A DNA stretch of 38,614 nucleotides, taken from assembly GCA_945870505.1 (NCBI GenBank), contig CAMBSN010000021.1:1-38614 (forward strand). The letters are read 5' to 3'. The position numbers and the translations under genes were made by a program. Below, in pieces: positions 7,900-38,614 of this stretch. This stretch comes from Candidatus Kuenenia stuttgartensis. GTDB taxonomy: Bacteria; Planctomycetota; Planctomycetia; Pirellulales; UBA1268. The notes beneath the pieces are model-generated. The model saw only the letters and a list, made by a program, of their open reading frames with translations. It made no database searches and was not told the origin of the DNA. The stretch's first letter is position 1; the number at the start of each line of letters is the position of its first letter.

Positions 7900-7993
7900 T
7901 AGCACAGGTTTCCAACCTGTGCTGGATGTGCCGCAGGTTGACAACCTGCGCTACGTTGCGGCGTGGCTGGTAGCACAGGTTGTCAACCTGTGC
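7900..7993. repeat. Cluster of three TAGCACAGGTT palindromes
   Basis: Copies lie at 7900-7922, 7931-7954 (reverse orientation, variant with CGCAGGTT) and 7971-7993. Each is a near-perfect inverted repeat CACAGGTT / AACCTGTG around a 3-nt centre and can form an 8-bp hairpin. They lie between the 5' end of the DUF1571 gene and the 3' end of the glutaminase gene, both on the minus strand. Spacing is irregular and the spacers are not unique protospacer-like segments. Confidence 0.85.
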
Positions 7994-21264: not shown

Positions 21265-22305
<1,041 letters not shown>

Positions 22306-23227
22306 CGCGATCGCCCGCATCCATCGGCTCGAGCTTCGTGCCCGGGCCGTGGTCGAAGGCGCACTGGCGGGGCTCCACAAGAGCCCCTTCAAGGGCCAGT
22401 CGGTGGAGTTTCTCCAGCATCGCGAGTACGTCCGCGGCGACGACCTGCGGCGCGTTGACTGGAAGGTCTGGGGACGGCAGGACCGCTTCACCGTCAAGGA
22501 GTTCGAAGAGGAGACGAACCTCCGGCTCACGCTCCTCGTTGACGGCTCCACGAGCATGGACTACCGCGGCGGAGCGGAGGCGGTGCCGCCGCGGCCCACG
22601 AAATACGACGCCGCCGCCACGCTGGCGGCAAGCCTCGGCTGGCTGGCCCTGTCGCACGGTGATGCCGTCGGCTGTGGCGTGTTTGACGACCGGCTGCGGG
22701 CCAGCGTGCCGGCCCGCACGAAGCGGTCGCAGCTGGCGAGCATCTGCGAGGTGCTCGAAGCGCCGCGAAACGCCGGCGCCGGTGACTTCCAGCGCGTCCT
22801 CCGCTCCGTCGCCGAAGCGCTGCCGAAGCGCGGCATGATCGTGATCGTTTCCGACCTGCTCGGCGACCGGGACGGGATCTTCGCAGGGCTGCAGCTGCTG
22901 CGGACGCGGGGCCACGACCTGGCGATCGTGCACGTGCTCGACGACGACGAGATCGACTTTCGCTTCGAGGGAGCGACGCGGTTTGAGGGACTCGAACTCC
23001 CGGCCCACATCGCCTGCAACCCACGCGCCTTGCGCGAGGGCTATCTGGCGGCGGTCGAGGCCTTTCTCGCCGAGGTTCGCCGGCGGGCGGCGGCCGTCCG
23101 CTGCGACTACGCGCTGGTTCGCACCGGTGAGCCGCTCGACGCGGCGCTCGTGCGGTTTCTCTCGCGGCGGGCGAGCGTGGCGGTCTAGGTGGCGTTCTCG
23201 GTGGCTGTTTAGGCGGAACCCTCGCGT

Positions 23228-25516
23228 ATGCCCACTCTCGAGTTCGCGCCGCTCTTCTGGTGGGGCCTGCCGCTCGCGGCGGCGCCCGTCCTGATCCACC
23301 TGATCAACCTGCTGCGGCAGCGGCGGGTGAAGTGGGCGGCGATGGAGTTTCTGCTCGCCAGCCAGCGGCGCTACCGCACCCGCGTGCTGCTCCGCCAGAT
23401 CGCCCTGCTCGCCCTGCGGACGCTGGCGGTGCTCGGGCTCGTCGCGGCGCTCGCGCAGCCGCGTTGGCGTGCGGCGGGCGGCATCGCGGGCGGCGACGCG
23501 ACGACACACCTGGTGATCCTCGACGACAGCTGCTCGATGGGCGATACGACCGGCGCCGAGAGTGATCTCGAGACCGACACCACCGCCGGCGATACCCGGC
23601 GGGCGACGGCGTTCGATCGTGGCCGGCGGGTGGTGGAGCGGATTGCCGCCGATCTCGCAGCGACGGCGGGGCGTCATCGGCTCGCCGTCGCGGTCACGTC
23701 GCAACTCGCCACCTCGTCCGATGTGCTCCCTCCGCTGCTGCCACTGCTGCCGTTCACCGACATCGCCCCGGGAACCATTCAGACGGTGCGCGACGCGGTC
23801 GGCCGGGCGGCGGCCGGCGATGGGGCGACCGGGCTGCGGGAGGCGTGCCCGGCCATGCGTCGGCTCGCGGCCGCCGCCGGTGGTCGGAGGGTGGTGTGGC
23901 TCGTGGGCGACTTCCGCAGCCGCGACTGGCTCGGCAGCGACGAGCCGGCGGCGACCCTGCGGCAGCTGGCCGCCGATGGCGCCACGCTCCGGCTGGTTGA
24001 CTGCGCCGGCGACGGCCCCGGCGGCAACCTCACGCTCGAGCGGCTCGAGGTGGTGGGTGGCGTGCCTGCGGCCAACGTGCTGCTGCCGGTGGAAGTGGAG
24101 GTTCGCAACGACGGCTCGACCCCCGTTCGTGATGTGGCCATCGAACTCCGCGAGGATGGTGGCGGCCGGCCTGGCGTGCGGATCGACGAGATTCCGGCGG
24201 GTGGCATGGTCAGCCGCCGATTCGACGTCCGCTTCACGGCCCCCGGCAGCCATACGATCGAGGCAGCGCTTCCCGGCGATGTGCTGAAGGCCGACGATGG
24301 GCGTCAGACCGTGATCGACGTGGTCGATCGCGTCGACGTGCTGGTGGTGGACGGTGCCCCCGATGCCGCCTCCGGTGGAGGGGCAGGAAGCTCGGGCGAC
24401 GGTTTCTACGTGGCGACAGCGCTCGCCCCCGGAGCCGGCGCCGCGACCGGACTGCGGCCACGGGTCGTGCCGCCGGCGGCCCTGGCGGCGACCGACCTAT
24501 CGAGATTCGCCTGTCTCTGGGTCCTCGATGTCGAGCGGCTCGACGCGGCGGCCGTCGCCGCGATCGAGGCCTATGTCCGCGCGGGGGGCGGTGTGGTCTT
24601 CTTCTGCGGGCCTCGAACCCGCGGCGATGTCGTGAATGACACGCTTCATCGCAGCGGCGCGGGCCTCTTTCCGGTGCCGCTCGCCGGCGCGATCGACCTG
24701 TTGCCCGACGCCAAGGCCGCCGCGCAGACGCCCGACGTCACCGTCGAGGATCACCCCGTGGTGGCCGTGCTCGCCGGCCAGCGGAACCCGCTTCTCGACG
24801 CCGTGCGGATCGAGCGGTTTTGGGCGATCGACCGCGGCTTCGATGCCGCCGGGCACGGTGTGCGGCGGCTGCTCTCGCTCCGCACCGGTCAGCCGCTCGT
24901 GATCGAGAAGACATTCGGCGACGGCCTCGTCGTGGCGGTGCTCACGACCGCCGCCCCCGAGTGGAACAACTGGGCTCGGGCCAACCCGAGCTGGGTGGTC
25001 GTGCTCTTGGAACTCGAGGGCCATCTCGCGCGGTTGCGACGGCGGGCAGAGTCGGTCACGGTCGGCGAGCCCGTCACGGTGCGGCTCGAGGCCGGCGTGG
25101 ACGAACCCGACGTCGACTTCCTCGTGCCGCCCGATGCCGCCCTGCTGCGGCAGACGGCCGTCGCCACGTCGGGACCGATGCTCGAGGCCACACTCCCGGC
25201 AACGGCTCACGCAGGCCTCGTCGAGGCGCGGTGGCGGAGGCTCGACGGCACCGAGCGGCAGCGGTCGTTCGCCGTCAACGTCGATCCCGGTGAGGGACGC
25301 CTGGAGCGGGCCGGGGTCGGGCGGCTGGAGGCGGCCCTGCGAGGCGTGCCCTTCCGCTACGATCGAGCCGCCGACGTCGCAGCCACGGCGGGCGACTTCG
25401 CCGGCCGTCCGCTGGCCCTGCCACTGCTGATTGTCGTCGCGGCGCTCTTGCTGCTGGAACAGCTGGTCGCCTACGCGGCCGGATATCACCCCGTCGCCCG
25501 CCGGCCAACGGCCTGA
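23228..25516 (+). CDS. BatA-like membrane VWA protein
   Basis: The 762-residue protein starts with the BatA N-terminal domain (TIGR02226-like): FAPLFWWGLPLAAAPVLIHL, INLLRQRRVKWAAMEFLLAS, RTRVLLRQIALLALRTLAV, forming two membrane segments. A VWA domain follows with MIDAS residues D99-D-S101-C-S103, then a long extracytoplasmic segment with a beta-rich module and a GATase-like VDVLVVDGAP region. The C-terminus has another membrane helix (LPLLIVVAALLLLEQLVA). BatA-type proteins are membrane partners in aerotolerance operons. It is 39 bp after the DUF58 gene. The gene order MoxR, DUF58, BatA is conserved in many bacteria, and the large C-terminal extension is typical of planctomycetes. Confidence 0.92.
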   Translation: MPTLEFAPLFWWGLPLAAAPVLIHLINLLRQRRVKWAAMEFLLASQRRYRTRVLLRQIALLALRTLAVLGLVAALAQPRWRAAGGIAGGDATTHLVILDDSCSMGDTTGAESDLETDTTAGDTRRATAFDRGRRVVERIAADLAATAGRHRLAVAVTSQLATSSDVLPPLLPLLPFTDIAPGTIQTVRDAVGRAAAGDGATGLREACPAMRRLAAAAGGRRVVWLVGDFRSRDWLGSDEPAATLRQLAADGATLRLVDCAGDGPGGNLTLERLEVVGGVPAANVLLPVEVEVRNDGSTPVRDVAIELREDGGGRPGVRIDEIPAGGMVSRRFDVRFTAPGSHTIEAALPGDVLKADDGRQTVIDVVDRVDVLVVDGAPDAASGGGAGSSGDGFYVATALAPGAGAATGLRPRVVPPAALAATDLSRFACLWVLDVERLDAAAVAAIEAYVRAGGGVVFFCGPRTRGDVVNDTLHRSGAGLFPVPLAGAIDLLPDAKAAAQTPDVTVEDHPVVAVLAGQRNPLLDAVRIERFWAIDRGFDAAGHGVRRLLSLRTGQPLVIEKTFGDGLVVAVLTTAAPEWNNWARANPSWVVVLLELEGHLARLRRRAESVTVGEPVTVRLEAGVDEPDVDFLVPPDAALLRQTAVATSGPMLEATLPATAHAGLVEARWRRLDGTERQRSFAVNVDPGEGRLERAGVGRLEAALRGVPFRYDRAADVAATAGDFAGRPLALPLLIVVAALLLLEQLVAYAAGYHPVARRPTA

Positions 25517-25653
25517 GCCCTGCGCCCATGACGCCGCTCCCACCGCCGCTGCTGCTCGCCGTCGCCGACGACGTGATACGGCTCGTTCCCCATCTCCCGT
25601 GGTTCCTGTCCGGGACCGTAGGTTTTCAGTCTGTGCCTCCCTGCTTGGCGTCG

Positions 25654-25740
25654 ACTCGGGTCTGCCCGCGCCCCGTCGCCGGACGTTCGCTACGGGCTTC
25701 CGGCCCTTCGCTCGCTGCACGCCGGCTGCGCTTCGCCATC
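25654..25740. repeat. Truncated 136-bp unit, locus B
   Basis: The left part (CTCGGGTCTGCCCGCGCCCC, GTCGCCGGACGTTCGCT, CTTCGCCATCGTGGC) matches the units at 13724 and 34551, but the right terminal repeat is absent. Confidence 0.65.
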
Positions 25741-25771
25741 GTGGCTGCGTTCTCGCCACGTCGTTCCCCAG

Positions 25772-25836
25772 TAGCACAGGTTGCCAACCTGTGCCTACCC
25801 ACGTCCGCCCCCGTAGCACAGGTTGTCAACCTGTGC
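25772..25836. repeat. Two TAGCACAGGTT palindromes
   Basis: Copies at 25772-25794 and 25814-25836, each CACAGGTT-NNC-AACCTGTG. They lie between two genes in the same direction, so if they terminate transcription they would split the train. Confidence 0.85.
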
Positions 25837-25908
25837 CTGCCCGTCGTGCGCCCGCTCCCGCCCTCATCGCCGGCGGGTCATCGCGAGGCCACGCCCCGCG
25901 GGAATCAC

Positions 25909-25913
25909 GGAGG
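25909..25913 (+). promoter_or_regulatory. Ribosome-binding site deciding the second VWA gene start
   Basis: GGAGG six bases before the ATG at 25920. The frame itself is open back to 25431, through the repeats, so this site and the membrane-protein N-terminus define the start. Confidence 0.7.
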
Positions 25914-25919
25914 AGCCTC

Positions 25920-28268
25920 ATGAGACACCGCGTCTCGAGCCGACTGCTCGACGGCTTTGACGACTGGTGGCAGATGCCAGTGTCGCTCCTGCTGGTCGCC
26001 GCCGTGGCCGTGTACGTCGCCTGGATGGTACGGCGCGACGCCGCTGAGCTTCCGTGGCCGGTGGCCGTGCTCCTCGCCGCGCTCCGGCTTGCGGCCCTGG
26101 CCGTCGTCGCGGCGGCGATCCTCGACATCGAACGCATTGCCGAGCACGAGATCGCCCTGCCGTCGCGCGTGGCCGTGCTCGTGGATTCGAGCGCCAGCAT
26201 GTCGCTGGCCGACGGCGACGATGCCGCTGGCACGCGGGCCGCTCGCGCTGCCGACCTCGTGGAGTCGGATCTCCTCGCGGCGGTGCTCCCCCGGCACGAC
26301 GTGAGCGTGTGGCGGTTCGACGCCGACGCGACGTCCGTGCTTCGACTCTCCTCCACCGGCTCAGGAACGGAGGCGAACGCGGCGGCCGATGGTGACTGGC
26401 GATCGCGGCTCGCGCCGGGCGGGGCCGAGACCCGGTTGGGCGAGGCTGTGGCACGCGCGGTCGAGGCTGGGCCGGCCGGCACGCTTGCGGGCGTGGTGGT
26501 GCTCTCCGACGGCGGGCAAAACGCTGGTCTCGATCCCCGGTCGGCGGCTGCGGCGGCCACGCGGGCGGGCGTGGCGGTGCATGCGATCGGCGTGGGGAGC
26601 GATGTGCTGCCGGCAAACGTCCGCATCGCCGACCTCGTGGCGCCGGCCCGCGTGTTCCCCGGCGACCGGTTTGCCGTGTCGGCCTTTCTGCAGTCGCAGG
26701 GCCTGGCCGGCGAGCGGGTGCGCATCGAACTCGAGGAGCGGCCGTCCGACGGGGCAGGGGAGTCGGTCGCGGGTCGCGTGCTCGATGGTGTCGAGGTGCT
26801 GCTCGGGGCCGATGGAGAGCTCGTGCCCGTGCGGTTCGACGTGCCCGGCCTGACGACGCCGGGCCGGCGGCTGGTCGCGGTGCGGGTGGTTCCTCCGGCG
26901 GCGGATCACTCGGCCACCGACGACGTGCAGGCCGTGGACGTCGAGGTGGTGGACCGCGTGACGCAGGTGCTGCTGATGGCGGGCGGCCCGGGCCGCGAGT
27001 ATCAGTTCATGCGCAACGTCCTCGAGCGGGACAAGAGCTTCGCGGTCGACGTGCTCCTCGGCACCGCGGCAGCCGGGATCTCGCAGGACGCCCGCCGCAT
27101 TCTCGACGCGTTTCCACCGGCCGACGAGCCGCTCGGCGAATACGATGCCGTGGTGGCGATCGACTACGACTGGCGGCTGCTCGAACCGGCGGCCCAGGCG
27201 CGGCTGGAGCGGTGGGTGGCGGGCGAGTCGGGCGGGCTCATGCTGGTGGCAGGGAGTGTGTTCATGGATAGCTGGCTCGGCGACGCGCGGACGGCGACGA
27301 TCAGAGGGCTGTATCCGCTCGACCTGCGGCGGCGGAGCGATGCGGCGACGGCCGGCATGGCGGCCGACGATCCGCGGCGGCTCGAACTCACCCGCGACGG
27401 CAGCGAGGCGGAGTTTCTCAGGCTCGCCGGCACGAGGGCCGCCAGCGACGCGGTCTGGAGGGAGTTTCCCGGCGTCTTTGCCTGCTATCCCGCAGCCGGC
27501 GTGAAGCCGGGCGCGACGGTCTACGCACGACTTGCCGCGGGGGCGGGTGGCGACGGACCGGCCTATTTCGCGGGGCAGTTCTATGGATCGGGGAGCGTGC
27601 TCGCGATGGGCAGCGGTGAACTCTGGCGGCTGCGGGCCCTGGGCGACGACGTCTACGAGCGGCTGGTGGCGCAGCTCGTGCGGCACGTGGCGCAGGGCCG
27701 CCTGATGCGCGGAGCCCGCCGCGGACGGCTGATCGTGGAGCAGGATCGCGTGGCGGTCGGCGGCACGGTGCGGATCCGGATCGTCGCGCCCGGAGCGGGA
27801 CGCCCACCCGAGTGTCGTGCCGTTGCACCGGACGGCAGCCATGTGTCGGTACCGCTCGTCGCCGAGCCCGCGCGCCCCGGCACGTTTGCGGGCGGGTTTG
27901 TCGTCACCCGCGAGGGCGGCTGGCTCGTGGAGGTCGAGCCGCTCTCCGCCGGCGACGAGCGGCTGTCTCGTCGGATCCAGGTGCAGCTGCCCGATCGCGA
28001 ACTGGCGAACCCCCGGCTCGATCGCGCGGTGCTCGCCCAGCTCACGAACGACACGGGCGGGACCACGCGGTTCCTTGCCGACGGTGGCGCCTCCGGCGAG
28101 ATCGCCGAGGCGATCGCCGCGGCACTCCCCGACCGGTCGCGACGGGAGTATGAGACAGGGGCAGCCGACCCGGCGTTTAAGCGTTGGCTCAACGCCGCCC
28201 TGCTCGCGGTCGGCGCCGGCTGTTTGTGCCTCGAATGGATCGTCCGCCGGCTCGCGAGGCTCGCCTGA
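25920..28268 (+). CDS. Second membrane VWA protein with amidotransferase-like segment
   Basis: The 782-residue protein starts with two membrane helices (MPVSLLLVAAVAVYVAWMV about 19-37, VAVLLAALRLAALAVVAAAIL about 48-68), then a VWA domain with an intact MIDAS motif D89-S-S91-A-S93. The middle has an Ig-like beta module (VFPGDRFAVSAFL...). A region from about 345 (VTQVLLMAGGPGREYQFMRNVL) resembles class I glutamine-amidotransferase folds without an obvious catalytic Cys. The C-terminus is a helix, WLNAALLAVGAGCLCLEW, with a basic end. It is known in planctomycete MoxR clusters as a large VWA protein. The next gene starts three bases later. The likely role is as a membrane scaffold working with MoxR. 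Confidence 0.88.
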   Translation: MRHRVSSRLLDGFDDWWQMPVSLLLVAAVAVYVAWMVRRDAAELPWPVAVLLAALRLAALAVVAAAILDIERIAEHEIALPSRVAVLVDSSASMSLADGDDAAGTRAARAADLVESDLLAAVLPRHDVSVWRFDADATSVLRLSSTGSGTEANAAADGDWRSRLAPGGAETRLGEAVARAVEAGPAGTLAGVVVLSDGGQNAGLDPRSAAAAATRAGVAVHAIGVGSDVLPANVRIADLVAPARVFPGDRFAVSAFLQSQGLAGERVRIELEERPSDGAGESVAGRVLDGVEVLLGADGELVPVRFDVPGLTTPGRRLVAVRVVPPAADHSATDDVQAVDVEVVDRVTQVLLMAGGPGREYQFMRNVLERDKSFAVDVLLGTAAAGISQDARRILDAFPPADEPLGEYDAVVAIDYDWRLLEPAAQARLERWVAGESGGLMLVAGSVFMDSWLGDARTATIRGLYPLDLRRRSDAATAGMAADDPRRLELTRDGSEAEFLRLAGTRAASDAVWREFPGVFACYPAAGVKPGATVYARLAAGAGGDGPAYFAGQFYGSGSVLAMGSGELWRLRALGDDVYERLVAQLVRHVAQGRLMRGARRGRLIVEQDRVAVGGTVRIRIVAPGAGRPPECRAVAPDGSHVSVPLVAEPARPGTFAGGFVVTREGGWLVEVEPLSAGDERLSRRIQVQLPDRELANPRLDRAVLAQLTNDTGGTTRFLADGGASGEIAEAIAAALPDRSRREYETGAADPAFKRWLNAALLAVGAGCLCLEWIVRRLARLA

Positions 28269-28271
28269 CGC

Positions 28272-30473
28272 ATGGACACCGCACCCCATCCTGCCGTGAC
28301 TCAGGCCCCGCATGACGAAGCGATCGCGTCGATCCTCGGAATGCTCGCGGCGGTCCGCCGCCGCACGCGGATCTGGATCTGGGCGGAGTCGCTCGCGCTT
28401 GCGGCGGCCGTGGCCCTGGCTGGTGCGTGGCTGTCGCTCGTGCTCGATCGGCTCGTCGAACCGCCGATCTGGGTACGGGTCGCGATGCTTGTGGCGGTCG
28501 CCGCCGCGGTGGCGTGGGTGCTCGTCACACGACTCGCGATGCGGCTGGCGGTGCCGCTCACCGACGAATCACTCGCCCTCGTCGTCGAGCGGGCACATCC
28601 CGAGTTTGGCGACGCGCTGTCAACGGCCGTGTCGTGCAGCCTCGGCGGCAACACCGAAGTGGATCCGGAGATGCTCGCGGCAACGGTGTCGGCCGCTGCG
28701 GCACGCGCCGGCGTGATCCGAACCGGGGCTATCTTCCGCAGGCGGCGGCTTGCGGGCGTGCTGGCGGCCGTCGCTGCTGCGGTGTCTGTCACGGCGGTGG
28801 CGGCGGCGACGCGGCCGACGGAGACGGCGATCTGGACGCGGCGAATGCTCGGGCTCTCCGACGCGCCCTGGCCGCGGCGGGTGGCGTTTGAGCCAGAGGG
28901 CTTCGTGGACGGGCGGCGGGTGGTGGCCCGCGGTGACGACGTGGACGTGCTCGTGCGGGCGATCGCTGCCTGGGGTGATCCGCCTGAGATGGTCGAACTC
29001 CGCACGCGGGGCCGAGGTGGCGTGCGGTCCGAGCGGATGGGGGGCCGTGGCGGCGCGACGGCCGCCGGACAGTCGTTCGGCCACGTGCTCAAGGGGGTCG
29101 ATGAGGATCTCGACGTGGAAATTCGCGGCGGAGACGCCAGGCTGCGCGGGCTCCGCGTCGTGGTCGAAGATCCTCCCGTGGTGACGGCGCTCGAGATCAC
29201 CTCCACGCCGCCGCCCTACCTCGGTGGTGGACCACGAACCTCGGCGGCGAGCCGTGTCGTGACCGTGCCCCGCGGATCGATCGTGAGCCTGGCATGCACG
29301 TCGAGCAAGCCACTGTCGGCCGCGAGTGTGTCGATCCGCAGGGCGGCAGCCGCCGATGGGACAGATGCCGTGGAGGAGCTGATCGCCCGGCTCGACTCGG
29401 CATCCGCCCCAACGAAGGCGATCTCGGCCGTGACACCGCCGATCGATGTCGATACCGCCGTGCTCGTGCGGCTCGTCGACGATCACGGGCTCGTGAACCG
29501 GGATCCTGTCGCGGTGGTGCTCGCGGCCGTTCCCGACGAGCCACCGCGGGTGGCGGTGCGACTCGCGGGCATCTCGTCGGCCGTGACGCCGCAGGCGACG
29601 CTCCCGATCGAGGGCTCGATCACCGACGATCACGCCCTGGCCTCGGCCGACGTGCGGCTGGCGGTGGGCGATGCGAGCCAGATCGTGCCGATCGGCCGCG
29701 CTCGTGATGGAGTGGCGGCGGTCGATCTTGCCGCAGACCGCCCGGAACTGGTGCGGCTGGAGCAGGCGGGCCTCGCCATCGGCGCGCGGCTCGAGGTGTC
29801 GGTCTCGGCCCGCGATCGCTGCACGCTCGCCGATGGGCCGCACGAGACCGTCGGCGAGACATGGACGCTCGACGTGGTCTCGCCCGAGTCGCTGCGGGCG
29901 CTGGTGGAGGCCCGCGAGGTGCTGCTGCGGCGGCGGCTCGAGGGCGTGATCGACGATCTCGTGAAGGCGCGAGACGCTGCCGCCGCGACTCCGCCACAGC
30001 CGGCCGACAAGGGCGATGATGGCGATGATCGTGGCGGCGATGGCGTTGCTCGGCGGTGTGGCGAAGCGGCCGCCCGCGCGGCGGGGGAGACTGCCGAGAT
30101 CGCCGGGGAGTTCAAAGGAATCCACCGCGAACTGGTCAACAACGCTCTGGCGACGCCCGACGTCGAGGCCCGCCTCCTTGGCCAGATCGCCGAGCCGCTC
30201 ACGGCGATCGTGACGGAGGAACTAGCCACCGCGATCAGCCGCTGCCGGCAGGCAGGCGAGGGCGACGCCGCCGGTGGCCGCCAGGCCATGGCCGCCGCCC
30301 TCGATGCCGCGGTGGCCAAACTCCGGGCGGTGCTCGATCGCATGCTGGAACTCGAATCGATCAACGAGGTGATCGAGCGGCTCCGCGGCGTGATTCGCGT
30401 GCAGGAGCAGATCCGCGACGACACGCTCGAGCGGCAGCGGAGGCGGGGCCGCGAGGCCCTGGAGTCGCCATGA
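28272..30473 (+). CDS. DUF4175-like large membrane protein
   Basis: The 733-residue protein has a cytoplasmic N-terminus (about 1-33), two membrane helices (WAESLALAAAVALAGAWLSLV and VRVAMLVAVAAAVAWVLV), a short loop with ESLALVVERAHPEFGDALSTAV, and a third helix (LAGVLAAVAAAVSVTAVAA). A long extracytoplasmic part of beta modules follows (VVTALEITSTPPPYLGG, ERTRGS-like), and the C-terminal 150 residues are helical and charged (VRDAAAATPPQ, AELEELATAI, LERQRRRG). This layout resembles the DUF4175 family, whose function is unknown. It starts three bases after the VWA gene and overlaps the next start by four bases (ATGA), so it is tightly coupled. Confidence 0.8.
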   Translation: MDTAPHPAVTQAPHDEAIASILGMLAAVRRRTRIWIWAESLALAAAVALAGAWLSLVLDRLVEPPIWVRVAMLVAVAAAVAWVLVTRLAMRLAVPLTDESLALVVERAHPEFGDALSTAVSCSLGGNTEVDPEMLAATVSAAAARAGVIRTGAIFRRRRLAGVLAAVAAAVSVTAVAAATRPTETAIWTRRMLGLSDAPWPRRVAFEPEGFVDGRRVVARGDDVDVLVRAIAAWGDPPEMVELRTRGRGGVRSERMGGRGGATAAGQSFGHVLKGVDEDLDVEIRGGDARLRGLRVVVEDPPVVTALEITSTPPPYLGGGPRTSAASRVVTVPRGSIVSLACTSSKPLSAASVSIRRAAAADGTDAVEELIARLDSASAPTKAISAVTPPIDVDTAVLVRLVDDHGLVNRDPVAVVLAAVPDEPPRVAVRLAGISSAVTPQATLPIEGSITDDHALASADVRLAVGDASQIVPIGRARDGVAAVDLAADRPELVRLEQAGLAIGARLEVSVSARDRCTLADGPHETVGETWTLDVVSPESLRALVEAREVLLRRRLEGVIDDLVKARDAAAATPPQPADKGDDGDDRGGDGVARRCGEAAARAAGETAEIAGEFKGIHRELVNNALATPDVEARLLGQIAEPLTAIVTEELATAISRCRQAGEGDAAGGRQAMAAALDAAVAKLRAVLDRMLELESINEVIERLRGVIRVQEQIRDDTLERQRRRGREALESP

Positions 30474-32023
30474 GACGCTGCCTGCTTCCCGTCGTGGCGG
30501 CTGTGCTCGCCGCATCGACCTGGTGCCCTGCGTGGGCGGTTGACGCGCCGCGGTCAGACGCCACCGCGCTCGCGGCCCGTGAGGCCGAGTTGCTCGCACG
30601 CTATCAGGAGCTCGAACGGTCGTTCCTACGACTTGCCGACGTGCTCGCGGCGACCGATCCACGGCGGGCCGCGGCGCTGCGGGCGGCGTTTGATCACGCC
30701 CGCGAGGAGCAGCTGGGGGATCGCGTGGCGGCGATCGTCGCGATGCTCGAGCAGGGCCAGTTGCTCAAAGCCGGCACGAGCCAGCAGGATGCGATCGGCC
30801 AGTTTCGCTCGCTCCTCGATCTGCTCGAGGCGGGGGCTGGGGAGCAGCGGGCGGCCGACACCGCGAAGCAACTGAAGGCCTTCATGGGGAGGATCACCAA
30901 GCAGATCGCGAAGCAGCGGGACATCGAGGGCGTGACGGAGGCGGGAGGCGCCGGCCGCGACCTGACGGAGCGGCAGCGGGCGGCCGCGGACGAGACGCGG
31001 GCGCTCGGCGACGACGTGCAGCGGTTCGCCGAACGGCTCGCTGAGGATGCGAAGAAGCCCGCGGCCGATTCGGCTGAGAAATCCGAGGCGCCCGGGAAGG
31101 AGCGCGGCCGCGAGGCGGAGCCATCCAGCCCCGACGGAAACGAGCCGGCGCCGGCAAACGCCGCCGAGGAGCCTCAGGTCGAGGGCAACGACGACACGGC
31201 CCGGAGCCGCCGGACGGCGCAGCGGCTGCGGGCCGCCGAGCAGCGGATGCGACAGGCCCAGGAGCGTCTGGAGAACACCGACCCCGGGGCCGCACGGGGC
31301 GAGCAGGAGCGGGCCGTCGAGGAACTCGAAACGGCGCGGGCCGAGCTCGAGCAGATCCTGCGGCAGATGCGGGAGGAGGAGGTGACGCGGCTGCTCGTCC
31401 AGCTCGAGACGCGGCTTCGCGGCATGCTCAAGGCCGAACGCGGCGTGCTCGCCGACGCGGAGCGATTGGCCGCAGCGACCGAGCAGTCGGATCGGGAGCG
31501 GCAGCTGGAGGCGGCGCGGTTGGGGAGAGAGCAGGGAACGATTACAGCCGAGGCCGCCAAGGCCCTCGTGCTCGTCCGCGACGACGGCTCGGCGGTGGCG
31601 ATTCCGCAGGCGCTCGAGCAGGTGCACGACGACTCGGGCCAGGCAGCCACGCGGCTGGCTCGCGGCGACGCGGGCCGCGACACGATCAGCCTGCTCGGCG
31701 AGATCGTCATCGGCCTGGAGGAGATGCTCGCGGCCGTCGAACGGGCGCGCGAGGACCAGCAGGATGCGGCCGCCGCGCCGGCGGGCGGACGCCCCGGAGA
31801 GGTGGGCGAGCAGCCGCTCGTCGACAAGCTCGCCGAACTCAAGATGCTGCGGTCGTTGCAGGCCCGGGTGAACGCGCGAACGCAGCGGCTCGCACGGCTG
31901 CTCGATGCCGACGACACACCCGTGAAAGGGACGGATCTGCGGGCCGCCCTTGCGCGGCTCGCCGACCGGCAGCGGCAGATCGAACGGGCCGCCCGCGACA
32001 TCGTCGAAGGGCTCACCGAGTAG
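30470..32023 (+). CDS. Exported coiled-coil protein
   Basis: The 517-residue protein has a signal peptide (MRRCLLPVVAAVLAAST, ending AWAVD). The rest is almost entirely helical and rich in Ala, Glu, Arg and Gln, with long heptad-like stretches (LAAREAELLARYQELERSFL, LRAAEQRMRQAQERLENT, VEELETARAELEQILRQM). A charged, Pro-rich linker at about 200-240 splits it in two. No family is recognised. The ATG overlaps the previous TGA by four bases. The pairing of the DUF4175-like membrane protein with a large periplasmic coiled coil suggests that they form one complex. Confidence 0.8.
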   Translation: MRRCLLPVVAAVLAASTWCPAWAVDAPRSDATALAAREAELLARYQELERSFLRLADVLAATDPRRAAALRAAFDHAREEQLGDRVAAIVAMLEQGQLLKAGTSQQDAIGQFRSLLDLLEAGAGEQRAADTAKQLKAFMGRITKQIAKQRDIEGVTEAGGAGRDLTERQRAAADETRALGDDVQRFAERLAEDAKKPAADSAEKSEAPGKERGREAEPSSPDGNEPAPANAAEEPQVEGNDDTARSRRTAQRLRAAEQRMRQAQERLENTDPGAARGEQERAVEELETARAELEQILRQMREEEVTRLLVQLETRLRGMLKAERGVLADAERLAAATEQSDRERQLEAARLGREQGTITAEAAKALVLVRDDGSAVAIPQALEQVHDDSGQAATRLARGDAGRDTISLLGEIVIGLEEMLAAVERAREDQQDAAAAPAGGRPGEVGEQPLVDKLAELKMLRSLQARVNARTQRLARLLDADDTPVKGTDLRAALARLADRQRQIERAARDIVEGLTE

Positions 32024-32107
32024 CGCGTTGGCCGAAGGTTTCCCCCGGCGTGGCTGCGAAGACTACACTCACAGATGGTGCTTCGTTCCCGACCTCCGGA
32101 GCCGCGC

Positions 32108-33193
32108 ATGCCCTTGCCCTCGATCCGCCGCACGCTGGCCCGAGGCCTGTTCGTGGCGGCTGCCTGGGCCGCGGTCGGGCCGCCGCCGGAGTGCGCCATC
32201 GCGGTGTCGGAGCCGGCGCTTTCCCGCGAGCCCACGTGGTCGATTCCCACCGCCAGCGCGGTGAGATTGAAGGTGGAGCAGTGGCCCGCGGGATCGGTCT
32301 CCCAGGAGACGGTTGATCCGACGCGGGCTGCCGCCGTGCGGGCAGCCTGGAACGACGTGGCCGCCGGCCGGAGAGACCTGCTCGACACGGTGGTGGATGC
32401 GATCGGAGATCATGAGCCGCGTGCCGCCCAGCTGGTGGCGACGGTGGCTCGTGGGCAGGATCCGCCGATCGAATGGCTCGACGACCCAGCGACCGACGCC
32501 TTCGTGCGGGATGCGCTGACGCTCTGGTGGGGCCGCGAACTCGTCCGTCGCGACCGCTTCGACGAGGCGCTGCCGCTGCTGGAACGCCTCGAGGTCGGTG
32601 ATTCGGTCGATCCCGCGACCGTGCTCTTCCACCGGGCCGCATGCGAGCATTGGCTCCTCAAGATCGATGAGGCGATCGAGTCGCTCGACCGGCTGCTGGA
32701 GCGAGAGTCGGAGATCCCCGTGCGATACGCCAGCGTGGCGCGACTCCTGCGGGCGGACGTCGCCGCGTTGGAGAAGGGCTCGCTCGATCACATCGCCCGC
32801 CGGATGCGAGACGTCACCAGGCGGCTCGACCTCGGCAGTGCCGGCCCCACGACCCGCGAGGTGCAGGACGGCGTGATGGCGTCGCTCGACGAACTGATCA
32901 AGCGGCTCGAGGACCAGCAGCAGGACCAACAAGGCGAGTCGTCGTCCGGCGCGGGCAGTGGCTCGGGGCAGGGGGGCGGAGGGCGGCCTATGGAAGACAG
33001 TCGCATCGCCCGCGGCCGCGGGACGGGCGAGGTGCGGAAGCGAGACCTCGCCCCGGGCGAGTCGTGGGGCAACCTGCCGCCTCACGATCGCGAGCGAGCG
33101 CTTCAGCAGATCGGCCGCGAGTTTCCGCCGCACTACCGCGAGGCGATCGAACAGTATTTCAAGCGGTTGTCCACCGGCGCGGAGGATCGCTGA
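32108..33193 (+). CDS. Exported helical-repeat (TPR-like) protein
   Basis: The 361-residue protein has a signal peptide (MPLPSIRRTLARGLFVAAAW). Residues about 110-240 form TPR-like helix pairs (WGRELVRRDRFDEALPLLERL, FHRAACEHWLLKIDEAIESLDRLL, RYASVARLLRADVAAL). A Gln/Ser/Gly-rich linker at about 275-300 (QQQDQQGESSSG, GSGQGGGG) precedes a conserved C-terminal tail with RERALQQIGREFPPHYREAIEQYFKRL, which occurs at the end of many planctomycete proteins from MoxR clusters. The ATG at 32108 has GGAG upstream and is preferred over 32075 because it starts the signal peptide. It lies 84 bp after the coiled-coil gene. Confidence 0.82.
   Translation: MPLPSIRRTLARGLFVAAAWAAVGPPPECAIAVSEPALSREPTWSIPTASAVRLKVEQWPAGSVSQETVDPTRAAAVRAAWNDVAAGRRDLLDTVVDAIGDHEPRAAQLVATVARGQDPPIEWLDDPATDAFVRDALTLWWGRELVRRDRFDEALPLLERLEVGDSVDPATVLFHRAACEHWLLKIDEAIESLDRLLERESEIPVRYASVARLLRADVAALEKGSLDHIARRMRDVTRRLDLGSAGPTTREVQDGVMASLDELIKRLEDQQQDQQGESSSGAGSGSGQGGGGRPMEDSRIARGRGTGEVRKRDLAPGESWGNLPPHDRERALQQIGREFPPHYREAIEQYFKRLSTGAEDR
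33181..33185 (+). promoter_or_regulatory. Ribosome-binding site supporting a GTG start at 33195
   Basis: GGAGG nine bases before GTG, inside the end of the preceding gene. The alternative ATG at 33219 has no such site. Confidence 0.6.
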
Positions 33194-33194
33194 C

Positions 33195-34412
33195 GTGAGC
33201 TGCTGCCCCGTCATCACGATGTCTTGCGGCGTGGGCCTGCGAACCGCGGCGCGGACGGCTTTGTGCTGGGCCGTTCTGGCGGTCGGCGGGATCGCCGCCG
33301 GCCCCGATGTGCAGGTGCGGGTGGACGGCACCACCGCCGCGCCGCTCCAGGGCGTGCTCCGGTCGATCGATCGCGAGGCCCTCGAACTGATCGTGGATGG
33401 TGAGTCGCGGCGGGTCCCCCTGGCCGGCGTACGGACGCTCACCGCGGTCGCCGGTGCTGAAGGCGGGCCGGTGCCACCTGCGGCCGTCGAGGTGGTGGGA
33501 GACGGCGGGCTCACGATCGGCGGCGACGACCTCCGCTGGGAGGAAGGTCGCGCGACGATCGTCCGCGGCACCGCGGCCATCGACCTGCCGATCGAGCGGC
33601 TGCGTCGGGCGGCGTGGCGACCGGCGGCGGATGCCGCAGGGGCGGACATTCCCGACTGGCTCGCGGCGGTGCCCGCCGAACCGGCGGCCGATCTCGTCGC
33701 CGTTACGCAGCCGGAGGGGTTCGAACTCGTGGAGTGCGCGATCACCGCGATCTCGCCCATCGCGGTCACGGTGATGCTCGACGGTGAGCGGATCCCCGTG
33801 AACCGCCGCAAGGTGCTCGGGCTTGTCTGGGTGCGGCCGCCGGTGGCGAAGGCGACTCCGGCGACGGGGGCCACGCAGGTCTCGATTGTCGGCGGCACCC
33901 TCGGCGCTTCGACGGTCGAGTGGCGGGATGGCGGGCTCGTGCTCGACGGCGAGATTCGCGTTCCCGGCGAGATGCTCCGGTCGATCGACTTTGCAGCCGG
34001 GCGGACGGTCGCGCTCGTCGCGGTCGAACCTGAGACCACGTCGAGCGAGCCGTTCTTCGGAGGCCTGACCGCGATCGACGGCCTGGCCTCTTTTTTTGCG
34101 CCGCGGATCGTGACTCCCGCCGAAGGGCAGCCCGCCTGGTTGATGCGGCCCAAGGCGACCGCCACCTGGAGGGTGCCCGACGACAGCCGCCGGTTTCACG
34201 CCCGGGCGGTTCGCGTGGCGGCGACCTCGGCGGTCGTTGTCTGGGCGCGAGCCGACGATGGCGCCGAGTGGCGGCAGCGGCTCGACGGCGCTGGTGCGAT
34301 TCCCATCGAGATCGACCTCCACGACGCGCGGCGGCTGACGATCGGCGTCGAGTTTGCCGATGGGGGTGTCGGTGTCCCCGTGCGCTTCGATGACGCGGGG
34401 TTCGAGAAGTGA
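33195..34412 (+). CDS. Exported beta-rich protein, family not recognised
   Basis: The 405-residue protein starts with a GTG two bases after the previous stop, and its N-terminus contains a signal-peptide-like segment (RTAARTALCWAVLAVGGIAAG). Residues 30-100 have a short beta segment (LQGVLRSIDREALELIVDGESRRVPL), repeated loosely near 120-150 and 190-225 (ECAITAISPIAVTVMLDGERIPV). This suggests repeated small beta domains, perhaps of the SH3 or Sm type. The last 110 residues (VTPAEGQPAWLMRPKATATWRVPDD, TIGVEFADGG) resemble an NPCBM-like jelly-roll carbohydrate-binding fold, but I am not certain. It is followed by a repeat-filled gap before the HtrA-like genes. Confidence 0.75.
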   Translation: MSCCPVITMSCGVGLRTAARTALCWAVLAVGGIAAGPDVQVRVDGTTAAPLQGVLRSIDREALELIVDGESRRVPLAGVRTLTAVAGAEGGPVPPAAVEVVGDGGLTIGGDDLRWEEGRATIVRGTAAIDLPIERLRRAAWRPAADAAGADIPDWLAAVPAEPAADLVAVTQPEGFELVECAITAISPIAVTVMLDGERIPVNRRKVLGLVWVRPPVAKATPATGATQVSIVGGTLGASTVEWRDGGLVLDGEIRVPGEMLRSIDFAAGRTVALVAVEPETTSSEPFFGGLTAIDGLASFFAPRIVTPAEGQPAWLMRPKATATWRVPDDSRRFHARAVRVAATSAVVVWARADDGAEWRQRLDGAGAIPIEIDLHDARRLTIGVEFADGGVGVPVRFDDAGFEK

Positions 34413-34452
34413 TCCGAGGTGCGCGTCATTCCCAGGCGTGGGCTCTCCCCCG

Positions 34453-34475
34453 TAGCACAGGTTGTCAACCTGTGT
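34453..34475. repeat. TAGCACAGGTT palindrome
   Basis: A copy with centre GTC, 32 bp before the first palindrome of the composite repeat. Confidence 0.85.
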
Positions 34476-34506
34476 GTCGTCCCGGTTCACGCGGGGGGCT
34501 CCTTCG

Positions 34507-34720
34507 TAGCACAGGTTGTCAACCTGTGTGTCTTCCCGGTGTGCAGTGGGCTCGGGACTGCCCGTGCCATCTCGCCGGACGTTCGCTGCGGGCATCCTGC
34601 CCTCCGCTCACTCGAAGGAGACCTCGCTTCGCCCTCCAGGCTTCGCTCGGTTTCCTACGCCGCTCGATTGGCACGGGCAGCCCCTCACAGCCCCTCGTAG
34701 CGCAGGTTTTCAACCTGTGT
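34507..34720. repeat. Composite repeat, locus C (palindrome / 136-bp unit / palindrome)
   Basis: Palindromes lie at 34507-34529 and 34698-34720 (variant CGCAGGTT). The 136-bp unit at 34551-34686 has terminal repeats GGGACTGCCCGTGCC (34554-34568) and GGCACGGGCAGCCCC (34670-34684), matching at 14 of 15. Length (214 bp) and period (191 bp) are identical to locus A, while the interior differs more than the ends. Confidence 0.85.
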
Positions 34721-34804
34721 GTCTTCCCGTTTCGCAGTGCGCTCCTGTGCGTGCCTCCGATCCAGATGCTCCCCCTCTCAGAGTCACAGGAAGCGATGAT
34801 GCCG

Positions 34805-34938
34805 CGAGGGGCTGCCCGTGCCCGGGAGCCGGCGTTGCTGACGAGCGGAGTCTGGATCGCGGAGCGAAGTCAGCATCGAGCGAGCGGAGGGCCGGAGCCC
34901 GCAGCGAGCGTCCGGCGACGGGCACGGGCAGCCCCGAG
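34805..34938. repeat. Inverted 136-bp-type unit, locus D
   Basis: Perfect 16-bp terminal inverted repeats, GGGGCTGCCCGTGCCC (34808-34823) and its complement (34920-34935). The reverse complement aligns closely with locus A along its length. It ends 44 bp before the first ATG of the HtrA-like protein's hydrophobic segment. Confidence 0.8.
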
Positions 34939-34981
34939 CGCCGGGAGACATCGTGGCCTTCGGGGCCTCGTGGTCGCGATC

Positions 34982-36649
34982 ATGATGGCCGCGGCCACGA
35001 TCGCCAGCGGCGTCGAGGTCGATCCTGCCGTCCTTGAGGCCCAGCAGGCCAGGATCGACGCGATCCGCCGGGCCACGCCAGCGGCCGTGTCGATCTTCGC
35101 CGGCGAATCCGGAGGAGGCTCCGGTGTGCTGCTCACCCGCGATGGGTATGCCGCCACCAACTTTCACGTCGTGCAGGCGGCGGGCCCGGCGGTCACCTGC
35201 GGGCTCGCTGACGGACGGCTCTACGACGCGGCGCTCGTGGGCATCGATCCCACCGGCGACCTCGCAATCGTGAAACTGCTCGGTCGCGATGATTTTCCGG
35301 TCGCCGGGTTGGCCGACAGTGATCGCGTGCAGGTTGGCGACGAATGCTTTGCGATCGGCAACCCCTTCCTGCTCGGCACCGATCTGCAGCCCTCGATCAG
35401 CGCGGGCATCGTCTCGGGCGTGCACCGCTACCAGTTTCCCGCGGGCACGATCCTGGAATACACCGATTGCATCCAGGTCGATGCCGCGATCAATCCGGGT
35501 AACTCCGGTGGCGGCCTCTTCGATGCAGTGGGGAGGCTGATCGGCATCAACGGCCGGGCGTCGTTCGAGAAGCGGGGACGCGTGAACGTCGGCGCCGGAT
35601 ATGCGATCTCGGCGAACCAACTGCGAAACTTCCTCGGGGCGCTCCGGTCAGGTCGCATCTGCGACCATGCGACGCTCGGCGCGACGGTCTCGACCGCCGT
35701 GGATGGCCGCGTGGTGGTGGCGGATATCCTCGAATCGTCCGACGCCTGGCGGCGCGGGCTGCGGTACGACGACGAGATCGTGTCGCTCGCGGGCCGGCCG
35801 GTGCGGACGGTAAACGCGTTCAAGAACGTGCTCGGCATCCTGCCCGCGGGATGGCAGGTGCCGCTCGTGATCCGCAGGGACGGCCGCCGGCAGGACCTGC
35901 TCGTGCGACTGCACGCGGTGCATTCACCGGCAAAACTCGCAGAACTCGCCAGCGGCGACGCCGCCGAAGAGTCGCGGGGTGGCAGCGATGGGCCGGAGGT
36001 GCCGGCGGCGGTTCGCCACGTCTACGAGCGGCGGGCCGGATTCGCCAACCATCACTTCAATGTTGTCGAGCGGGATCGCGTCGCGGCGGGGCTCGCCGCC
36101 ATTCGCGACGCGCGGCCGGACGGGCCGTGGGTGCTGGCCGGTCAGCTTGCGGCCGGTGGCGAGTTTCGCATCGAGCTCTCCGACGCCACGGCGACGATCG
36201 ACCTGCCCACCGGCACCTCGACGCTCGCGGGTGAGGACGAGTTCGACCGCCAGCCGGTGCCTCCGGGCAGCGGCGGTCTCCTGCCGGCGCTTGTGCTCTG
36301 GCGACGGCTCGTCGTCGAGGGCCCTACGGCGGTGGGGCAGACCATCTTCTGGGGAACCGCGCCGCGGCAGCCCGCCACGTTTGCGGCCGACGCGGCGGGG
36401 GAACTCGTTGACGTGCTCGAATCGGCGGTGGCCGGCGTGGTGGCCCGGTTTGGTGTGGACGCCGCCGGCCGCGTCGTGTGGATCGACCTCTGGACGTCGC
36501 CCGACGCCGATCCGTGTGAGGTGAGGCTCACGTGGCCGGAGGAGGGCACCGCGGGCGGGATGCCGTTATCGATGGAGGCCAGCTTTGGCAGCGAGCCCTT
36601 CGCAACCTTCGTGATGGATGCGCCCGCGGCAGCGGAGGCATCGCGATGA
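34982..36649 (+). CDS. HtrA/DegP-like serine protease with PDZ domain (triad intact)
   Basis: From the ATG at 34982 the protein is 555 residues long. The trypsin-like domain has all three catalytic residues: H62 in TNFHVV, D93 in TGDLAIVKL and S175 in NPGNSGGGL. A PDZ domain follows (about 235-310; VVVADILESSDAWRRGLRYDDEIVSL). A C-terminal region of about 240 residues has no recognised family. The enzyme is expected to degrade or sense misfolded envelope proteins. The start is uncertain. MMAAATIASG lacks the basic segment of a signal peptide, while the upstream in-frame RHRGLRGLVV provides it without an ATG. Candidates are a GTG at 34970 or the ATG at 34796, inside the repeats and preceded by AGGAA. 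It overlaps the next gene by four bases. Confidence 0.88.
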   Translation: MMAAATIASGVEVDPAVLEAQQARIDAIRRATPAAVSIFAGESGGGSGVLLTRDGYAATNFHVVQAAGPAVTCGLADGRLYDAALVGIDPTGDLAIVKLLGRDDFPVAGLADSDRVQVGDECFAIGNPFLLGTDLQPSISAGIVSGVHRYQFPAGTILEYTDCIQVDAAINPGNSGGGLFDAVGRLIGINGRASFEKRGRVNVGAGYAISANQLRNFLGALRSGRICDHATLGATVSTAVDGRVVVADILESSDAWRRGLRYDDEIVSLAGRPVRTVNAFKNVLGILPAGWQVPLVIRRDGRRQDLLVRLHAVHSPAKLAELASGDAAEESRGGSDGPEVPAAVRHVYERRAGFANHHFNVVERDRVAAGLAAIRDARPDGPWVLAGQLAAGGEFRIELSDATATIDLPTGTSTLAGEDEFDRQPVPPGSGGLLPALVLWRRLVVEGPTAVGQTIFWGTAPRQPATFAADAAGELVDVLESAVAGVVARFGVDAAGRVVWIDLWTSPDADPCEVRLTWPEEGTAGGMPLSMEASFGSEPFATFVMDAPAAAEASR

Positions 36650-37680
36650 TCCCGTGCCGTGCAGCCGCTGTCCTTATCGCGCTGCTGACGACCCGCGTGG
36701 TCGGCGCCGCGACCGAGTCGTCGCCGCAGCTGGTGGCGGCCAGCGCGGCACACAGCGTCGTCAAGATCTACGGCGCGGGCGGGCTTCGCGGCCTCGAGGC
36801 CTACCAGTCGGGGATCATCCTTTCGCCCGACGGCCGGATCGCCACCGCGATGAGCACGGTGCTCGATTCGGATGGCATCGACTGCGTGCTCGACGACGGC
36901 CGCCGCTTCGAGGCCACACCCCTGGGGGTCGATCCGCGACGGGAACTGGCGGTGCTCTCGATCGACGCCACCGACCTGCCGGCGGCCTTGCCCGCGGAGG
37001 AGCGTGTGGCGGCGGGCACGCGGGTGCTGGCGGTGTCGAACATGTTCGGCGTTGCCGTCGGCGATGAGCGGGCGAGCGTGCAGCGGGGCGTGATCGCGTC
37101 GGTCGTGCCGCTTGAGGCACGACGGGGCGCCGCCGATGCCCCGTACACCGGCATGGTCTACGTGCTCGACTTCACGACCAACAATCCCGGCTCACCGGGC
37201 GGTGCGATCGTTGACTCCCGCGGGCGGCTGCTCGGAATGATCGGCAAGGAACTGCGGTCGTCGGCCGGCGGCATCTGGCTCAACTACGCCCTGCCCGTGG
37301 ACGAACTGCTGGTCGGCTGCGAGGCGATCGTCGCGGGTAGCGGCGTGGCGGCTCCTGCGGCCGCCGCGACACCATTTGATCTGGGGCTCCTCGGGATCGT
37401 GCTCGTGCCGGACCTCCTCGACCGCACGCCCCCGTTCGTCGAGACGGTGCTTCCGGGATCGGCGGCGGCACGGGCTGGGCTCGCCGCGGACGACCTGCTG
37501 ATCGCTGTCGGCGCTCGGGCGGTCGGTTCGCACGCCGCTGCGGAGCGGGCCGTGGGGGCGATTCCTTCAGGCGATCCGGTGCGGCTCTCAGTCATCCGCA
37601 CGGGGACGGTCGTGGACTATGAACTCGGCCCGAGGCCGGCGGTGGCGGAAGGCCGAGCGCCGCAGGGAGCCACGCCATGA
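36646..37680 (+). CDS. HtrA-like pseudoprotease with PDZ domain
   Basis: The 344-residue protein has a signal peptide (MIPCRAAAVLIALLTTRVVGA). The chymotrypsin-like fold is clearly recognisable (SGIILSPDGRIATA, GRRFEATPLGVDPRRELAVLSIDA, NNPGSPGGAIVDSRGRLLGMI), but the triad is lost. The TNxHVV histidine aligns with S70 (AMSTV), the aspartate of TDLAVL with E100 (RELAVL), and the serine of GNSGG with P184 (GSPGG). A PDZ domain follows (about 245-325; FVETVLPGSAAARAGLAADDLLIAVG). It should be unable to cleave peptides but could bind them. The ATG overlaps the TGA of the active protease as ATGA, so the two are made together. It is likely a regulator or adaptor. Confidence 0.9.
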   Translation: MIPCRAAAVLIALLTTRVVGAATESSPQLVAASAAHSVVKIYGAGGLRGLEAYQSGIILSPDGRIATAMSTVLDSDGIDCVLDDGRRFEATPLGVDPRRELAVLSIDATDLPAALPAEERVAAGTRVLAVSNMFGVAVGDERASVQRGVIASVVPLEARRGAADAPYTGMVYVLDFTTNNPGSPGGAIVDSRGRLLGMIGKELRSSAGGIWLNYALPVDELLVGCEAIVAGSGVAAPAAAATPFDLGLLGIVLVPDLLDRTPPFVETVLPGSAAARAGLAADDLLIAVGARAVGSHAAAERAVGAIPSGDPVRLSVIRTGTVVDYELGPRPAVAEGRAPQGATP

Positions 37681-38614
37681 ACTGGCCGCACGGCATGCTG
37701 AAGCTTGTGGTGGCGTCGATGCTTTCCACGGTGGGCGGTGCCGCGACCGCGGGCGAGCCGACGCTCGCCGAAGAGGCGGCGTTTGGCGCGGCGGTGAGGC
37801 AGGTTGCCGGTGCCGTGGTGCGGATCGAGCCCGTCGCTGGCGCAGCCGTGGCGGGGGCCGCCGGCGAGGAGGCGGGCGTGGCCTCGGGGCCATCGACGGG
37901 GCTCGTGGTCGATTCGGCGGGGCTCGTGCTCACCACGTCGTTCGCCGTGCCCGAGACCGCTCGCGAGGCGGTGGTGGTGCTGCCCGATGGCCGCCGCGTG
38001 GCGGCCAAGCCTCTCGGCCGCGACGTGCCACGGGGCATCGTGCTCCTGAAGACCGACCCGATTCCGGCCGCGCCGGTGATCGAGCCGGCGCCTCGCGGCA
38101 GTCTTGCGCCGGGCCAGTGGACGATCGCCGTCGGCCGCGGCTGGTCGGCCGCCGAGCCGAGCGTGTCGGTGGGCATCCTGTCCGCGGTGGAACGCGGCTG
38201 GGGGCTCGCCGTGCAGACCGACGCGGCGGTCTCGCCAATGAACTACGGAGGTCCGCTCATCGACATCGCCGGTCGGGTGATCGGCATCGTGGCGCCGCTC
38301 CCTGCCGAGCCCGCGAAGATGATGCGAGGCACGGAGCTCTACGACGCCGGCATCGGCTTCGCGGTGCCGCTCGAGGACCTGCTCGCGGTGCTTCCGCGGC
38401 TCGCCGCAGGAGAGTCGCTCGGGAGCGGCATCCTCGGTATCGGTTATCGATCGCGGGATGCGATCAACGGCTCTCCTGTTATTGCGTCGGTGCGCCAGGG
38501 CTCCCCCGCCGCCCGTGCCGGCCTCCGGCCGGGTGATCGAATCGTCGCCGTAGACGGTCGTCTGGTCCGGCGGATCGCCGACGTGCGGCACGCGGTTGCG
38601 CCGCGGCATGCGGG
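37677..38614 (+). CDS. Second HtrA-like pseudoprotease (3' truncated by window end)
   Basis: The visible 312 residues start with a signal peptide (MLKLVVASMLSTVGGAATAG). The protease-like fold continues with GLVVDSAGLVLTTSFAV, PDGRRVAAKPLGRDVPRG and SPMNYGGPLIDIAGRVIGI. The histidine position is F89, the aspartate position G120, and the serine position Y190 (MNYGG instead of GNSGG), so all three catalytic residues are replaced, by residues different from those in the preceding pseudoprotease. A PDZ domain starts at about 250 (ILGIGYRSR, GSPAARAGLRPGDRIVAVDG) and reaches the window edge. The ATG overlaps the previous TGA by four bases. There is no stop before 38614. Confidence 0.88.
   Translation, partial: MNWPHGMLKLVVASMLSTVGGAATAGEPTLAEEAAFGAAVRQVAGAVVRIEPVAGAAVAGAAGEEAGVASGPSTGLVVDSAGLVLTTSFAVPETAREAVVVLPDGRRVAAKPLGRDVPRGIVLLKTDPIPAAPVIEPAPRGSLAPGQWTIAVGRGWSAAEPSVSVGILSAVERGWGLAVQTDAAVSPMNYGGPLIDIAGRVIGIVAPLPAEPAKMMRGTELYDAGIGFAVPLEDLLAVLPRLAAGESLGSGILGIGYRSRDAINGSPVIASVRQGSPAARAGLRPGDRIVAVDGRLVRRIADVRHAVAPRHA

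Follow-up and report, generated by a model that had tools for sequence, protein, structure and literature searches.

HtrA proteases are understood as homo-oligomers, and mixed protease assemblies are known in ClpP/ClpR, which includes inactive subunits, and in Deg5/Deg8. The closest described system to the one considered here is MamE/MamO, in which MamO, a dead HtrA homologue, activates the active protease MamE and is needed for MamE-dependent proteolysis, and selection for pairing an active with an inactive HtrA has been argued from this system, the pairing having arisen more than once in magnetotactic bacteria according to the part of the source drawn on here (PMC4794232). The 38,614-base contig CAMBSN010000021.1 of Candidatus Kuenenia stuttgartensis (assembly GCA_945870505.1, 87% complete), analysed in full and called the window below, ends in three consecutive genes, A, B and C, encoding one HtrA-type serine protease with an intact triad and two HtrA homologues in which the triad is lost. 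Like MamE/MamO, the trio encodes a dead HtrA domain beside an active HtrA, but it differs in having two dead copies, in forming three sequence groups over many families of one phylum, in the near-fixed Tyr and aromatic replacements and the hydrolase-like domain of C, and in its link to a MoxR/VWA cluster. An active HtrA with a dead HtrA partner is thus already known from MamE/MamO, and two dead partners are a new form of it. The Pfam scan found no TauE match in B or C, and against the NCBIfam MamO model the two score 26 and 19 bits respectively (cut-off 800). DegP, DegQ and DegS, which we take to be members of MEROPS S1C, share the fold and the PDZ domain with all three proteins (with B and C by phmmer and Pfam) and the triad with A, from which they differ in that A falls under the curated TIGR02037 cut-off (198.5 against 416.2 bits) and carries an extra C-terminal domain in its model; B and C differ in being without the triad. 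A word-based literature search with partial coverage found no account of dead HtrA paralogues from planctomycetes. A PDZ survey reports that planctomycetes have multiple PDZ proteins, and by word search the terms "inactive" and "catalytic triad" are absent from its main text (PMC6411480). HtrA, trypsin, PDZ, peptidase and MoxR are likewise absent, by word search, from the main text of an essential-gene paper on Planctopirus limnophila (PMC10632474).

A first-pass annotation of the window had described three open reading frames (ORFs) coupled by two ATGA overlaps, each with a chymotrypsin fold and a PDZ domain, and both descriptions are borne out (Table 1). Trypsin_2 scores 101 bits in A, 66 in B and 78 in C (cut-off 27.6), and each protein passes the Pfam cut-off of one or more PDZ models, PDZ_2 in A reaching 29.8 bits (cut-off 27). 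The fold and PDZ domain of C are homologous to those of DegP also by model and Foldseek. Catalytic positions were mapped by phmmer against solved DegP chains and by aligning the three proteins jointly with E. coli DegP, DegQ and DegS in MAFFT. Both agreed with the residues first assigned to the triad positions, H/D/S in A, S/E/P in B and F/G/Y in C, and the alignment placed no triad elsewhere in B or C. A misaligned or relocated triad in B or C was ruled out by phmmer, the joint alignment and a check of histidine columns, in which the best-conserved column (among those filled in at least 70% of rows) reaches at most 55% in B and at most 49% in C. A substitute His-based site in B or C was ruled out likewise, no histidine being conserved. 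The same columns may also bear on a di-histidine metal site of the MamO type.

The triad residues were counted in 85 sequences of A, 86 of B and 89 of C, which are related and not independent events, with some genomes contributing two pieces. Score thresholds excluded from the counts the A of G183 (approximately 297-299 bits) and of G113 (approximately 293-294 bits), both thought real, together with the B of G096 (a fused ORF, 178 bits), the middle gene of G065 (120 bits) and paralogues. Wherever it is covered the triad of A is unchanged (H 81, D 81 and S 83 of 85, the remainder being gaps). In B the His position is replaced in all 85 covered rows (by Ser in 73, Gly in 5, Asn in 4, Gln in 2 and Thr in 1, one further row being a gap) and the Ser position in 84 of 85 (by Ala in 37, Pro in 26, Gln in 11, Tyr in 4, Phe in 2 and Thr, Asp, Gly and Glu in 1 each, one row keeping Ser and one further row being a gap), the exception being a second copy in G043 that has Gly for His. 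His and Ser are the positions consistently lost in this family; the Asp position is looser (Glu in 49 rows, Asp in 13, Gly in 11, Gln in 6, Lys in 4, Ala and Ser in 1 each, and one gap), such that the term "fully inactivated", first applied to both paralogues, is exact for the window proteins and too strong for the Asp position of B family-wide. The His position of C is aromatic in 86 of 89 sequences (Phe 78, Tyr 4, Trp 4, with Leu, Ala and Asn 1 each) and its Ser position is Tyr in 87 (Val 1, Thr 1), with a variable Asp position. The REPLACEMENTS at the dead sites of B and C are fixed across many lineages, and the residue losses are beyond chance, closely similar replacements recurring in the 86 B and 89 C sequences. 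Triad alignment and conservation together uphold the central proposal of one active HtrA with two conserved dead paralogues.

Ranked by column conservation within their own family, the Tyr and Phe columns of C lie at the 92nd and 83rd percentiles, and the Ser at the His position of B lies at the 86th, with the nucleophile position of B only at the 40th. The oxyanion glycine, presumably Gly193 in chymotrypsin numbering, is retained in every covered B row (85 of 85) and has been lost from all 89 C sequences. Because Gly193 is kept in B and absent from C, and given the replacement patterns, B has a lost but open site and C an altered, probably filled one, which may be plugged by aromatic side chains. 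It is very unlikely that B and C are still enzymes working through other residues, as might be supposed from the conservation of the fold and many fold residues in both and from the oxyanion glycine of B; the weakly conserved histidine columns and the complete loss of that glycine from C argue against it. Beyond the protease domain of A, a second histidine, H229 (window positions 35666-35668), is invariant across the A alignments.

Ratios of nonsynonymous to synonymous substitution (dN/dS, NG86) over nine genome pairs, in which A was measurable in seven, B in eight and C in nine, lie between 0.08 and 0.28 for all three genes alike, the values of B and C being near those of A. A tree of 102 protease domains, built by a quick method with Shimodaira-Hasegawa-like approximate likelihood ratio (SH-aLRT) support only, has 43 of its 99 inner branches drawn open. 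It gathers A, B and C into one group each (support 93, 93 and 98), and none of these includes the three E. coli Deg proteins or the four further planctomycete HtrA paralogues in the tree. The three separate groups suggest that the split predates the sampled families. That B and C are decaying duplicates on their way to loss, to which the variable Asp position and the missing trio in two genomes (G013 and G052) could be held to point, can practically be dismissed in the face of reading frames open phylum-wide, the low dN/dS, the near-invariant replacements in C and the three old tree groups. Pseudogene decay was ruled out by the triad counts, dN/dS and the tree, and the dead copies, whose decay would have refuted the first-pass reading, are under purifying selection and retained across the phylum.

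Two genomes carry further trios. In G043 a second A-B-C trio was found on the 13501-base stretch L121, and its B alone among the B sequences has Ser at the nucleophile position. In each of the three parts of the tree the members of this trio group with sequences of G170, G136, G203 and G076, which belong to families outside the order, and this suggests that the trio was transferred as a set. G065 (L177) has a divergent trio of one live protein (H/D/S) and two dead ones (R/G/F, the middle gene, and N/N/T); in the tree the A group and the C group each have one of these proteins as their sister, and the remaining protein is a long unplaced branch.

The co-occurrence of the three genes with the same substitutions, proposed in the first-pass annotation as a check, is seen among related genomes and across the phylum, where the trio recurs with closely similar replacements. 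Among 60 related genomes, the window's own included, matches at an E value of 1e-20 with paralogues counted were obtained for B in 57 and for C in 59, and orthologues defined by the score gap in the match lists for B in 55 and for C in 56, with G009, G010, G013 and G052 lacking both genes and G011 lacking B. The whole trio is held by 52 of 60 loci (59 fetched and the window), always in the order A-B-C on one strand, the order being read by script at 51 loci and from match positions at the 52nd (G006). The other eight are contig ends or split contigs, except for G040, which has no C within 4.8 kb after B and carries C on a separate contig. G052, which is a single contig and 99% complete, and G013, which is 97% complete, have no orthologue-level A, B or C and likewise lack a gene of the neighbouring cluster. 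In a phylum set of 199 genomes, 32 have strong matches to all three (at least 294 bits for A, 182 for B and 248 for C), of which 30 have the genes adjacent on one strand, and the hypergeometric chance of the overlap between B and C in the 199 genomes is 3e-36 with kinship ignored. In G146 and G164 (L151-L156) all three genes are retained at unlinked sites.

The window is the whole contig and gene C is therefore truncated. Full-length relatives of C are mostly 650-730 amino acids long and add the rest of the PDZ domain, a second PDZ domain and a C-terminal alpha/beta-hydrolase-like domain. The AlphaFold2 model of the C of G005 (665 amino acids) has a mean predicted local distance difference test (pLDDT) score of 90; Pfam marks one PDZ stretch in this protein and two in that of L103, the second PDZ domain of the G005 protein being based on the alignment and the model. 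Pfam matches to the hydrolase domain are found in few members (Abhydrolase_3 in 6 of 46, Abhydrolase_1 in 4 of 46). None of the 48 full-length sequences has the nucleophile serine of the G-x-S-x-G elbow, a verdict that hinges on the alignment. The nucleophile position is Gly in 26 of them, Glu in 7, Lys and Gln in 5 each, Arg and Ala in 2 each and Asp in 1, and 19 of the 48 have a Ser one place ahead of it, where it misfits G-x-S-x-G as aligned. If the domain call and the alignment are correct, C would be a double pseudoenzyme. In the model of A (mean pLDDT 88) the last 200 or so residues form an additional domain, matched by Pfam DUF4292 in 5 of 49 members with a best E value of 1.4e-4. In Foldseek searches of the PDB with the A and C models, the 50 matches listed for each were all HtrA-type structures, so that DUF4292 is the sole assignment for the C-terminal domain of A and the hydrolase call in C depends on the Pfam matches.

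We favour, with modest confidence, the explanation that A is the sole protease and that B and C are ancient pseudoproteases retained for roles other than catalysis, most likely acting on A; the residue losses, their conservation, the purifying selection, the shared presence, the shared ancestry and the synteny are all observed. B and C may bind substrate or ligand through their PDZ domains and altered clefts, and would in this way switch on, gate or direct A. A mixed trimer is attractive because HtrA proteins trimerise, and A, B and C would probably assemble as a mixed HtrA oligomer outside the inner membrane, export being suggested by signal-like starts judged by eye. The trio may work as part of the MoxR-DUF58-BatA-VWA cluster that precedes it, with the MoxR/VWA machinery as its target. 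ClpP/ClpR and Deg5/Deg8 are mixed-subunit assemblies, to which the trio would add a putative one.

Several observations weigh against this explanation. At one position of the HtrA trimer interface, placed from F256 of human HtrA2, Trp or Phe is found in 50 of 85 A sequences and Trp, Phe or Tyr in 82 of 89 C sequences, but Arg in 57 of 86 B sequences, which leaves it unclear whether B would be compatible with a trimer. G248 has A and C without B, on separate contigs and perhaps through an assembly gap. An A-level match without a B match is seen in G065 and in G080 (311 and 295 bits respectively), both genomes having been omitted from the A set though they outscore G113, and G065 also G183. In G009 and G010 a cluster gene is present and the trio was not found, the cluster gene of G009 lying less than 2 kb from the contig start, so that a gap is possible there. 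In 20 regions upstream of A, taken from the order, the class and other families, MoxR is not within reach in five (G083, G235, G103, G207 and G164), and the link to it is as such not universal. Finally, a physical interaction between MamO and MamE went undetected according to the part of the study drawn on here (PMC4794232), and activation therefore need not mean assembly.

More tentatively, and with clear doubt on our part, the trio could form an obligate asymmetric HtrA machine in many Planctomycetota, each trimer of which would combine a catalytic subunit with two non-catalytic ones that differ from each other. A pseudo-site plugged by aromatics and a subunit that is a pseudoenzyme twice over would bind a signal and gate the single active site, and the machine would work as the output of a MoxR AAA+/VWA complex outside the inner membrane. 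If the three proteins do act together, a set of a live HtrA protein and two dead ones would offer a natural example of a protease under the control of its dead relatives. The trio also supports, outside magnetosome formers, the idea of selection pairing active with inactive HtrA.

A different and less probable explanation, to be taken seriously all the same, is that B and C are repurposed binding proteins for a ligand, metal or partner of the MoxR/VWA cluster, which do not act on A and are encoded with it for the sake of the shared cluster. The second PDZ domain of C and its hydrolase-like domain without a nucleophile serine resemble a scaffold for binding. In MamO the dead protease domain binds metal, according to the portion of that work drawn on here (PMC4794232), and the genes are retained when scattered, such that direct contact is not required. 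Against this, A, B and C are mostly kept or missing together in the 199 genomes, and the outside families with which the second G043 trio groups are the same in all three parts of the tree, as if the trio had been handed on together.

Upstream of the trio lie genes for MoxR, DUF58, BatA and VWA proteins, a set known from Bat (aerotolerance) type operons. The window cluster has the same Pfam domains as Bat-type operons in the same order and differs from them by the HtrA trio at its 3' end; we know of no Bat operon with an HtrA trio, no direct search having been made. Of the 20 upstream regions, 19 have a homologue of the gene at 32075 and 12 have MoxR, with the cluster cut by the edge of the stretch in three more (G136, G170 and G079), and the trio often ends a conserved MoxR-DUF58-BatA-VWA cluster. 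The suggestion that the trio may serve the MoxR/VWA complex thus has support from synteny only, in 12 of the 20 regions and not in the five without MoxR. In G164 the stretch upstream of A (L284) is without any cluster gene. C looks like the last conserved gene because the best-shared downstream ORF was matched in 15 other regions of 40. The trio provides a testable handle on these poorly understood MoxR/DUF58/VWA clusters.

The MoxR neighbour also raises the improbable alternative that B and C serve a MoxR-vWA conflict system as inactive effectors, either decoys or dominant-negative ones. Such systems are defined by a third component of the VMAP, iSTAND, FtsH or beta-propeller kind. In the sections of the source drawn on here, trypsin domains in the effector position of MoxR-vWA ternary conflict systems are nearly all inactive, and planctomycetes are named as carriers of one class of these systems (PMC7159879). 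The window MoxR does lie above the cut-off for Pfam bpMoxR (40.9 against 27 bits), but it fits AAA_3 far better. The effectors of conflict systems are described in the same sections as hypervariable (PMC7159879), whereas B and C are conserved under purifying selection, mostly with one orthologue per genome and with starts that look signal-like by eye.

Table 1. Genes and gene overlaps of the HtrA trio and the preceding cluster in the window.
Feature	Coordinates	Strand	Description
MoxR-type AAA+ ATPase	21265..22305	+	Pfam AAA_3 208.7 bits
DUF58 protein	22271..23188	+	Pfam DUF58 127.2 bits
BatA N-terminal domain protein	23228..25516	+	Pfam BatA 45.9 bits
VWA protein	25431..28268	+	Pfam VWA 29.1 bits (cut-off 23.8); true start probably further in
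Four more cluster genes	28272..34412	+	28272-30473, ~30470-32023, 32075-33193, ~33219-34412
Gene A	34982..36649	+	HtrA-type serine protease, 555 amino acids from ATG 34982, hydrophobic start; triad H62/D93/S175; single PDZ ~230-310; extra C-terminal domain ~340-548 (model)
A stop/B start overlap	36646..36649	+	ATGA, in sequence
Gene B	36646..37680	+	344 amino acids, Trypsin_2 fold with S/E/P replacing H/D/S, PDZ
B stop/C start overlap	37677..37680	+	ATGA, in sequence
Gene C	37677..38614 (contig end)	+	312 amino acids, truncated, F/G/Y replacing H/D/S

The start of gene A is ambiguous, with an in-frame GTG at 34970 as the alternative to the ATG, and the start of B is signal-peptide-like when judged by eye. 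Ahead of MoxR lie a large pyrroloquinoline quinone (PQQ)-like protein, identified by eye, and then a squalene-hopene-cyclase-like protein (24.5 bits, under the cut-off of 26.1). No sigma-70-like promoter was found in 34300-38614, the search being a weak test in this phylum. Between the preceding gene and A there are three 53-nucleotide copies of a palindromic repeat, CAGGTTGNCAACCTG, together with other inverted repeats. With at most one mismatch this repeat is matched 10 times in the window and not once in 100 shuffles, the window matches lying at 34447-34744 and also at 7905-7990, 13685-13890 and 25777-25833, and it resembles a small mobile or regulatory repeat.

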